Virus record (IMG/VR): IMGVR_UViG_3300033571_007740
Span: 1 to 41,255 of that record
Origin: a virus
Direction: 5' to 3' (one strand)
Length of the DNA: 41,255 bases
Numbering within the stretch: the first letter of the stretch is position 1; each line of letters starts with the position of its first letter. This document shows, piece by piece, positions 1-3,083 of the stretch. The position numbers and the translations under genes are program-made. Below the pieces are notes generated by a model. The model saw nothing but the letters and a program-made list of their open reading frames with translations, did not search any database and was not told the origin of the DNA.

Positions 1-1231
1 CGTGAACTTCTTTACCCGCTCTACCGCTAGCCATTTCAGCAGCGCCTTGCATTACAAGGGCTATTGTCTGTGGCCCAGTTCCAAAGATTCTTCCAGCGCT
101 GCGCAACGCATTCCCCAATCTTGATCTAATCAGGGTTTGCCTGTATTCCGCGACACTGCTAAATGCCTTTGCTTCTAATTTGGCGGCTTTTTCTTGAGCA
201 GATCTTAGTGCAGCACCGCGCAACGGTTTTCCATTTCGATCTACAAATCGCTGTGCCATGGTCGATGGCGCTGGCGGTCTCACCGCTCTGGATGGCGGTG
301 CAGTTGGTGCGGTGGGATTCGGAGCGACTGGTGGCGGCACTCTAGTCATCGGGGCGGACGGTGCAGTTGGCGGAGGAATTTTAACTGCTGGCGTCTTAAA
401 ATATTTGTACATTTTTCTTAGTTTCAATGCCAGATATCCAACACCGAGCGCACCAGCACCCATTACCCATTTATCGGTTACCTGATTATAAGGATTACTG
501 CCTTCAATCTGATCTTCGGGTACTCCCGTTCTTCTTTGAATTTCTCTTTTGGTTGAGTGAATACCAGCATTAATCAAAGATGCCGCAACTAACGGACCCA
601 ATCCTTTGACCAGCGCATTTATCACTGAGCGTCTACTCAGAATCGAGAATATTTTATTGGCGAGATCTTCTTCTTTTTTAGGTTCTTGCTTCTTAGATGC
701 CATTTTTTTGGTGAACGGCATTTTATTTTGAGATAAACTAGCCAACTTACTGTTTATCTCATCTAGTTGACCTTTGACAGTCTTTGACCTAGTCAGTATG
801 CGAACGGCTGTCGGATCTTTGATGTTATTCAGAGAAGCATAATTCGGAGTCTTTTTATTTTTGTACGCACCCAATTCAGAATATAGATTAGTAATGAGTG
901 CGGTATTCCTTTCAGAAATAGCGACTAAAGTGTTTATTTTATTGTTCAGATTTGCTATTGAGTTTAAGGTATATTTCTTAAATTTAGCATCGTTCTCTTG
1001 TCTTCTTTTTTCTTGAGTAAACTCTTCTTTTTCCAACGGCGTTCTTTTACCATATTTGGCTTGAGCAACGGTCGCTAAAAATTCTGATCGAGTTATAATT
1101 CTAACGAGATTATATACAGACAATCGCATCGCCAAATCTTCCTTCAGCATGGTTGAAAATGCTGAAGCGAGTGTGGAATTTTTTCTCGACTTGATTGTGT
1201 ATAGTTTTGTTGCTAGTAATGTTAGTGACAT
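1..1231 (-). CDS. Large structural protein, N-terminal 410 residues (tape-measure candidate), partial
   Basis: An open frame on the minus strand starts at ATG 1231-1229 and stays open to the left edge, so the C-terminus is missing. The start overlaps the stop of the preceding frame by one base (TAATG). The N-terminal part (about residues 1-180) is charged and probably helical. A hydrophobic Gly/Ala/Leu segment follows, then a Pro/Ala/Thr-rich linker at about residues 280-330, then another basic and Ala-rich helical stretch. I do not recognise the family from sequence. It is directly downstream of gp26 and a short gp51-position frame. In many tailed phages the tape measure follows the tail assembly chaperone pair, and T4 gene 29 lies in the same hub cluster. 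A tape-measure or hub role is therefore inferred from position only. It could also be another internal virion protein. Confidence 0.6.
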   Translation of the reverse strand, partial: MSLTLLATKLYTIKSRKNSTLASAFSTMLKEDLAMRLSVYNLVRIITRSEFLATVAQAKYGKRTPLEKEEFTQEKRRQENDAKFKKYTLNSIANLNNKINTLVAISERNTALITNLYSELGAYKNKKTPNYASLNNIKDPTAVRILTRSKTVKGQLDEINSKLASLSQNKMPFTKKMASKKQEPKKEEDLANKIFSILSRRSVINALVKGLGPLVAASLINAGIHSTKREIQRRTGVPEDQIEGSNPYNQVTDKWVMGAGALGVGYLALKLRKMYKYFKTPAVKIPPPTAPSAPMTRVPPPVAPNPTAPTAPPSRAVRPPAPSTMAQRFVDRNGKPLRGAALRSAQEKAAKLEAKAFSSVAEYRQTLIRSRLGNALRSAGRIFGTGPQTIALVMQGAAEMASGRAGKEVH

Positions 1232-1509
1232 TATCTTCGTCTGTTGCCTTTAAATAATTTCTTCAGCGATTCTTCAGTTTGTTTGACTCTCTCGGTTTCT
1301 TCTTTAACCCAAGTATTTACCATTGTGATATACATATCACGCTCCCACGGCAACATGTTCTCTAACTCTGTCAGCGTATATTTGTACTGGTGAGTTAATG
1401 TGAACATGTTATTGTAGTAGTTTTTCAGAGAAGCATTACGAAAGGTTAGGTAAAAAAATCGTTGAGACCCTCCAAATGCAATTTGTGGTCGAACCCACAT
1501 TTCCCGCAT
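1231..1509 (-). CDS. 51: gp51-position frame; probable -1 frameshift extension of gp26
   Basis: This frame overlaps the 3' end of gp26 by 64 nt in the -1 frame. Its coding-like part is the last 73 residues, which include the motif LENMLPWERDMYITMVNTWV followed by a charged helix. That is the style of the second reading frame of tail assembly chaperones (lambda gpT and equivalents). The first ATG at 1509 lies inside gp26 and gives a nonsensical N-terminus. The next ATG, at 1407, would give 58 residues but has no Shine-Dalgarno sequence. Entry by frameshift at the T7 run at 1452-1458 is the better explanation and would yield a gp26 fusion of about 324 residues. In T4, gp51 is a baseplate hub assembly factor next to gp26, but T4 gp51 is much longer, so homology is not claimed. 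The stop overlaps the next ATG by one base. Confidence 0.6.
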   Translation of the reverse strand: MREMWVRPQIAFGGSQRFFYLTFRNASLKNYYNNMFTLTHQYKYTLTELENMLPWERDMYITMVNTWVKEETERVKQTEESLKKLFKGNRRR

Positions 1510-2204
1510 TTATGTTCTATGTCCAGTTTCAGTTTAGGTAAATTCTGCAAAAACTCTAGGATCTTATCAAACTGTTCTTGAGTCAGACTCTCTAGGAATG
1601 TATAGAATTCTTCTTTGGTCGTTTCTTTGGTATAGTAAAGGCTGGTCTCATCGTAGACATATTCCGAGCATTCCATGATCAAGTCATAGACCTGATCATT
1701 GTCTTCCGAAAATAGAAGACCCTCTACATCAACAAATTCACCAATTGTCGGATACTTTAACTGAATTCCAACCGTGTTAGTGAATTGAATTTTGTTTGGT
1801 TTTGTTGGAACAAATGGTGGCACAACTTCAAGGAGATTGATAGAAACCTCCATCAAGTTCTGGCACTGAACTGGAATCTCATTACCCGCATCGTCTTGAG
1901 TTGTTCGCACTATGTTTTGACATAAAAAATTGGTATCCAGTTTTTCTCCGACCGATCTTGCTCTCAAGTTCAAGAACAAATATTCGATATCAAAAATTGG
2001 AATGTCGTCTATATTAATATCGTCAATCAAGCAATTGTTGATGACTTGCTTGATTGTTTTGAGAATTGTCTGGCTGTCTTCGCTCTGTAGAGCCATCAGC
2101 AACAGTTTTTCTTCTTTGACTAGAAAAGGTCTGAACTTTATCGGATCTTCTCTAGTGACAATTTTCAATTCAAATACGGGTAGACTTATTTTAGGCAATG
2201 GCAT
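1446..2204 (-). CDS. 26: gp26 baseplate hub subunit / hub assembly protein
   Basis: 252 residues, resembling T4 gp26 (T4_baseplate family; T4 protein about 208 aa). The N-terminus MPLPKI is followed by the typical FRPFLVKEEK segment at about residues 25-34. Zinc-binding-like cysteines lie near residue 94 and at C233-x2-C236 with H240 and H243, and the protein ends in the family-typical LEGLxDFF. In T4 this protein is needed for assembly of the central baseplate hub. The start is supported by GAGG seven bases upstream of the ATG and by 12 nt of spacing after the preceding stop. The last codons, GAT TTT TTT ACC TAA, contain a perfect slippery heptamer just before the stop (see the separate entry), which would extend a fraction of the product into the next frame. 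Confidence 0.85.
   Translation of the reverse strand: MPLPKISLPVFELKIVTREDPIKFRPFLVKEEKLLLMALQSEDSQTILKTIKQVINNCLIDDINIDDIPIFDIEYLFLNLRARSVGEKLDTNFLCQNIVRTTQDDAGNEIPVQCQNLMEVSINLLEVVPPFVPTKPNKIQFTNTVGIQLKYPTIGEFVDVEGLLFSEDNDQVYDLIMECSEYVYDETSLYYTKETTKEEFYTFLESLTQEQFDKILEFLQNLPKLKLDIEHKCGKCGFDHKLHLEGLNDFFT
1452..1458 (-). other. Candidate -1 ribosomal frameshift site T-TTT-TTT in gp26
   Basis: Seven T on the coding strand are read in the gp26 frame as (GA)T TTT TTT, followed by ACC TAA. This fits X-XXY-YYZ for simultaneous -1 slippage of two Phe tRNAs. After slippage the reading goes to TAC CTA ACC and runs 73 codons to the stop at 1231. The site is three codons before the gp26 stop, as in lambda G/GT type chaperone pairs. 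I did not find a strong downstream hairpin by eye. Confidence 0.6.
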
Positions 2205-2216
2205 AATAATACCTCA

Positions 2217-3083
2217 TCATGATTTACCAGTGTAGCCGCCACCAGGGTTGGTTGTGGAAGAAATAATACCGTCCAACGAATTCAATGCATTAGCAATTTT
2301 TTTGCTTTTCAGTTTCACGTTTTCCAATTCACTGATCTTGTTACTCTTGGTTGTTGCGTCGTTGACTGAATACGACTCGTATGTAAACGTCACCGATAAT
2401 CTATGAAATCCATCATCAGCCCAGTTGGCGGTCATTGGCGCAATGCTTAATGGATAAGCGTCCTTGAATGTGATCGTGTAGTATGGTTGTTTTGATACAT
2501 TCAGATTAGATACGTTGTTGACGTTGTTTATGAACTCCTGCCCGATATCAGTGAATTTGAATAGTTTAGAACTATCGAAAAAATATCTGTTTATTTTGTC
2601 GATGGAATTCAATATCGAATTCAATCCTTTAAATTTACCGTATGGTGCGGCGGGAAATTCTGTATATTGGAATAGAGTAAAATCGGACACAACTTCATCA
2701 AAGTATCGAGTCTCTACGCTATTGAAATCTTGTGTAATAAAATCTATCCAGTAAGTGAAAATATCATAGACTGGGATCTCGACATTGTGAATGAAAGTCA
2801 TGGTGACTTCTGGGTATTCACGTGAATAGGGAACCTTTATCTTATTCCTACCTGGAATCTTATAATCCACGCCGACGGAGTTTTTTCCAGGGAACTCTAC
2901 GGACTCGCAGAACATAGAAAACCCGCGAGGGCTTTTTGCTGAGATCAGACTATAGTCAAAGGGCAGAACTGGCATCATAAACATAAATTGGGAAGACTTT
3001 AAGAAGTCTTGCCCCATAAATGTCTGCAGCGACTGATCTGGGTTGGTGCTAACAAGAGGCACTGTCGTTGAATTTTCTGCCAT
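2217..3083 (-). CDS. Tail-tube-family protein, probable gp54-like tube initiator
   Basis: 288 residues with the hallmarks of the T4 gp19/gp54 tail tube fold. An early segment, FCESVEFPGK (about residues 58-67), is followed by a beta-rich YPEVTMTFIHN strand pair. Near the C-terminal half comes YPLSIAPMTANWADDG, and then a final strand LSVTFTYESY. Members of this family form either the tube itself (gp19, about 163 aa) or the initiator ring on the baseplate (gp54, about 320 aa). The length and the baseplate-cluster location favour gp54. A second tube-like protein cannot be excluded. The start overlaps the upstream stop by one base (TAATG), and gp26 follows after 12 nt. Confidence 0.65.
   Translation of the reverse strand: MAENSTTVPLVSTNPDQSLQTFMGQDFLKSSQFMFMMPVLPFDYSLISAKSPRGFSMFCESVEFPGKNSVGVDYKIPGRNKIKVPYSREYPEVTMTFIHNVEIPVYDIFTYWIDFITQDFNSVETRYFDEVVSDFTLFQYTEFPAAPYGKFKGLNSILNSIDKINRYFFDSSKLFKFTDIGQEFINNVNNVSNLNVSKQPYYTITFKDAYPLSIAPMTANWADDGFHRLSVTFTYESYSVNDATTKSNKISELENVKLKSKKIANALNSLDGIISSTTNPGGGYTGKS

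Follow-up and report, generated by a model that had tools for sequence, protein, structure and literature searches.

Frameshifting in tail assembly chaperone (TAC) genes is reportedly described, in the abstract of the 2022 work by Vladimirov and colleagues, as conserved in several T4-like groups, with T4 using genes 26 and 51. According to PMC10885494 and PMC12846349, TAC genes were identified in T4-like phages by Vladimirov, Gautam & Davidson (2022, Virology 566:9-15), frameshifting is replaced in some of these phages by a short gene and a second, longer one that encodes the fusion (PMC10885494), and poly-T sequences are known -1 signals in their TAC-N genes (PMC12846349). The T4-like TAC-N/TAC-NC pairs belong to the same family as the proteins considered here, with a poly-T -1 signal in TAC-N and an extra C-terminal domain in the long form, and no mechanistic difference from our locus is seen. 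Frameshifting in T4-like chaperone genes is already known, and the 41,255-nucleotide stretch of viral DNA analysed here as a whole (hereafter the window) represents another, uncultured phage with the same predicted system. The earlier note on this DNA had stated that nothing of the kind was described for gp26; this was mistaken, as both T4-like tail assembly chaperones and their poly-T signals had been described before (PMC10885494, PMC12846349).

Further parallels are provided by lambda gpG/gpGT and P2 gpE/E', in which, as predicted for the window, a -1 slip shortly before the first frame ends yields a long product beside the short one. The order of tube gene, chaperone and long downstream ORF is also shared by lambda, P2 and the window; the lambda gene order is V-G-T-H, which the order in the window matches. 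On the other hand, the lambda slippery sequence differs from the heptamer found here. The roles of lambda gpG and gpGT have been summarised elsewhere (PMC5009743).

Organization of the gp26-gp51 locus

The features of the locus and its neighbours are as follows (window coordinates).

2217..3083, minus strand: upstream gene of the tail tube family (phrog_45 tail tube, E 1.1e-19)
1446..2204, minus strand: gp26, 252 aa, the short product, TAC-N (Pfam T4_baseplate PF12322, E 9.5e-55; phrog_150 baseplate hub, E 6.6e-59)
1468..1473, minus strand: GGAGGG, Shine-Dalgarno-like, ending 9 nt 5' of the heptamer, a probable stimulator (pairing peak against synonymous shuffles)
1452..1458, minus strand: T TTT TTT, the slippery heptamer, in frame with gp26 and one codon 5' of its stop (sequence; T TTT TTN in 95/95 genes)
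1231..1452, minus strand: gp51 domain in the -1 frame, 73 codons followed by the stop at 1231-1233 (phrog_634, E 3.3e-21; alignment of 32 relatives)
1231..2204, minus strand: predicted long product TAC-NC, 324 aa (computed translation; alignment with T4 gp51 covers most of the latter and spans the junction)
2..1231, minus strand: long downstream ORF, at least 410 aa, truncated at the contig end, a probable tape measure protein (homologous ORFs in the relatives L002 and L001)

The first product of the locus is a member of the gp26/T4_baseplate family. At the end of gp26 the minus strand reads GAG GGT CTC AAC GAT TTT TTT ACC TAA, and it thus holds, as the earlier note had read it, a T-TTT-TTT heptamer of the X XXY YYZ type in the gp26 frame and 5' of the first stop. 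No stop interrupts the -1 frame between 61 nt 5' and 215 nt 3' of the gp26 stop, and the +1 frame is closed 10 nt past it. The 73 further codons of the -1 frame claimed before were also recovered, as 73 residues after the slip; the -1 frame matches phrog_634 (gp51, baseplate hub assembly catalyst; residues 18-81). In the computed translation, TAC-NC runs in frame 0 from 2204 to 1452 and then in frame -1 from 1452 to 1234.

We consider it highly probable (roughly 0.93) that -1 programmed frameshifting at the gp26-gp51 junction makes a short and a long tail assembly chaperone. Under this reading gp26 and gp51 would be one tail-assembly-chaperone gene. Most ribosomes would stop at the gp26 stop and give the short chaperone of 252 aa, and some would slip back by one base on T TTT TTT, both Phe tRNAs re-pairing with TTT, and read on, so that the product is 324 aa long and ends in the gp51 domain. 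The GGAGGG 9 nt upstream would probably assist by pairing with 16S rRNA. We infer the slip itself, its rate and the production of the long protein from the DNA sequence.

Structure prediction was also used. The gp51 domain alone was predicted to be helical with middling confidence (pTM 0.45). The best BFVD matches were gp26-type hub proteins and uncharacterised phage proteins. A PDB fold search with the predicted chaperone structure returned no significant chaperone match, the HK97 chaperone included (HK97 2ob9, E 3.7; 3fgx, E 5.1).

Conservation of the slippery heptamer

The T7 run was first considered by itself and rejected as evidence, since the window has 7 copies on both strands compared with about 22 expected from shuffles, so that the run is rarer than expected. 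As it is uninformative on its own, conservation in frame was taken as the evidence. We collected 95 gp26 genes (80 IMG/VR contigs, 14 phage records and the window), and every one of them has T TTT TTN in the gp26 frame no more than eight codons from the stop; in 79 the heptamer lies one codon 5' of the stop. Pelagibacter phage Mosig retains the heptamer even though its gp26 stop is displaced downstream, to eight codons past it.

The residue preceding the Phe-Phe pair is variable (Ser, Asp, Asn, Ala, Gly, Arg or Thr), and yet its codon ends in T in 95/95 genes, and the first Phe codon of the heptamer is TTT in all of them. Phe-Phe pairs elsewhere in the same genes form the heptamer in only 4/100 cases. 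Given each gene's own codon usage, the probability is ~1e-23 for the T-ending preceding codon and ~1e-20 for the first TTT, or ~1e-7 each when one gene is used for each of 29 clusters at 50% identity; genes were taken as independent, and these values should be regarded as guides only.

The last codon of the heptamer is TTC in 65 genes, TTT in 26, and TTA and TTG in 2 each, which bears on whether the fusion could come from transcriptional slippage on the T run rather than from ribosomal frameshifting. The seven consecutive Ts of the window would suit such a process; however, T TTT TTC, present in 65 of the 95 genes, breaks the homopolymer while keeping codon re-pairing, and polymerase slippage would normally call for a longer run than six or seven Ts. 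We therefore regard transcriptional slippage as extremely improbable.

Alignment of gp26-gp51 junctions across relatives, a check proposed beforehand, revealed joint conservation of the heptamer and of the gp51 frame that overlaps at -1. They could be identified in Kyanoviridae and their uncultured relatives, in Pootjesviridae, in Straboviridae of the phiAS5 and VH7D (Schizotequatrovirus) type, and also in the unclassified phages Cr30 and Desulfovibrio phage 7757.

The gp51 frame and its start codons

In all full-length relatives except Synechococcus phage S-SCSM1, the frame of gp51 is -1 (L026 is truncated by the contig end). In S-SCSM1 (L085 1482-1520) an insertion of about 11 nt between the heptamer and gp51 places gp51 at +1, and the -1 frame stops within a few codons of the heptamer. 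The insertion is either a sequencing error or the mark of a phage that has lost the fusion.

The second domain thus lies at -1, and in the window it has no efficient start of its own. It had been claimed that the ATG at 1407 was the only internal one; two more were found, at 1509 and 1500, upstream of the heptamer inside gp26, both with weak pairing (-3.0 and +0.2 kcal/mol, respectively). No start occurs at the equivalents of 1509 and 1500 in L001 (60% identity) or L002 (56%), the closest relatives. In nearly all relatives gp51 is without a usable start of its own: upstream of the conserved gp51 domain, ATG, GTG and TTG are all absent in 40 of the 95 genes, 52 possess a start that lacks ribosome-site pairing, and only 3 combine a start with complementarity.

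These data also bear on the possibility of a separate gp51 gene, in which reinitiation or coupling would let translation begin at ATG 1509, 1500 or 1407 and GGAGGG would serve as the ribosome site. An ATG is found near the heptamer in many relatives (44/95 before +24), in several database records the annotated gp51 start overlaps the gp26 stop, and S-SCSM1 could use only a start of its own. Nevertheless, the scarcity of starts described above argues against a separate gene, which would also leave unexplained both the conserved T-ending codons and the in-frame gp26-gp51 fusion of T4 (see below). We consider a separate gp51 gene quite improbable. More generally, database records annotate gp51 from varying starts or omit it, for example in S-WAM1.

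Upstream element and 3' structure

Complementarity to the 16S rRNA end peaks 6-9 nt 5' of the heptamer, with a mean of -7.4 kcal/mol compared with -5.3 kcal/mol in synonymous shuffles, and none of 100 shuffle sets equalled the observed peak. The known spacing of -1 frameshift stimulators is 9-14 nt, and the 9 nt between GGAGGG and the heptamer in the window fall within this range (PMC5009743). E. coli dnaX likewise combines a -1 slip with an internal Shine-Dalgarno element upstream, typically at 9-14 nt. It is, however, a different gene and also has a 3' stem-loop, whereas here a stem-loop is variable among relatives and absent in the window.

With regard to the 3' side, no hairpin was predicted after the heptamer in the window (MFE 0.0), and strong structure was found in L001 (-14.9), L002 (-17.5) and S-PM2 (-14.2). 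Structure just 3' of the heptamer was somewhat stronger (mean z -1.2) than at other offsets (about -0.75 to 0.4). A conserved 3' stem-loop was rejected, because shape and position vary among relatives and the window has none. No correlation that would indicate a trade-off between upstream element and hairpin could be observed (Spearman 0.14, p 0.18). At 1407-1452 of the window the hairpin of L001 and L002 is broken, and the GGAGGG region can instead pair across the slippery site.

We give even odds to the view that the main -1 stimulator in this family is the Shine-Dalgarno-like element, lying in Leu-Glu-Gly codons 9 nt 5' of the slippery site and selected beyond the protein sequence, and that a 3' hairpin is optional and variable between close relatives, as in the window. 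No description of the upstream GGAGGG element was found in the literature covered, which includes work citing Vladimirov et al. (2022).

Relation to T4 gp26 and gp51

The first 201 residues of T4 gp51 (249 aa) match the gp26 family (PF12322, E 3.9e-52); the protein is also matched by phrog_150, and its C-terminus corresponds to phrog_634. T4 gp26, which is related to T4 gp51 (BLASTP 2e-6), is without the gp51 domain; a profile of the -1 domain alone matched T4 gp51 (6e-9) and not T4 gp26. In addition, the alignment of T4 gp51 with the frameshift fusions continues across the junction. Judged by these alignments, T4 gp51 is a paralogue of gp26 that carries the same C-terminal domain in frame, and T4 therefore encodes the two forms in separate genes, its gp26 being homologous to the short form and its gp51 to the long form. 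Unlike in the window, these two genes are located on opposite strands and no frameshift is involved. It has been noted that cyanophage gp51 lacks about 200 N-terminal residues of T4 gp51 (Sullivan et al., PMC3037559), which would be because the short cyanophage gp51 is the C-terminal part of a frameshift fusion.

On the whole, the gp26-gp51 -1 fusion in a lambda G/GT-like arrangement, as the earlier note had predicted, is supported by the heptamer in 95/95 genes, the -1 frame, the missing starts and the homology to T4.

Neighbouring genes and proposed role

The truncated ORF downstream of gp51 had no family match in Pfam or PHROG searches. L002 and L001 have homologous ORFs at the corresponding position (760 aa, E 1e-52, and 874 aa, E 3e-19, respectively), both complete, and in most of the relatives inspected gp51 is followed by a long ORF. 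In Cr30 (L086 1707-1955), Mosig (L092 2707-2979) and Rhizobium phage Y68 (L088 1701-2111) gp51 is separated from the long ORF by one or two small ones; in the Cr30 record a tape measure protein is annotated two genes further on. In Synechococcus phage BUCT-ZZ01 (L093 1603-2468) a late sigma factor, not a tape measure-like ORF, comes after gp51, and the chaperone appears uncoupled from its usual neighbour.

Based on gene order and T4 homology, we infer a chaperone role for the gp26-gp51 products. Fold comparison lent this role no additional support. Like lambda gpG and gpGT, the two forms would cover the tape measure protein and recruit tail tube subunits to it.

Implications

The gp51 entries of marine T4-like phages, which are usually recorded as separate 'baseplate hub assembly catalyst' genes or omitted, most likely represent the C-terminal half of a tail assembly chaperone made by frameshifting. 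The gp26-gp51 family would also provide many natural slippery sites, some followed by a 3' hairpin and others not, for measuring what drives frameshifting.
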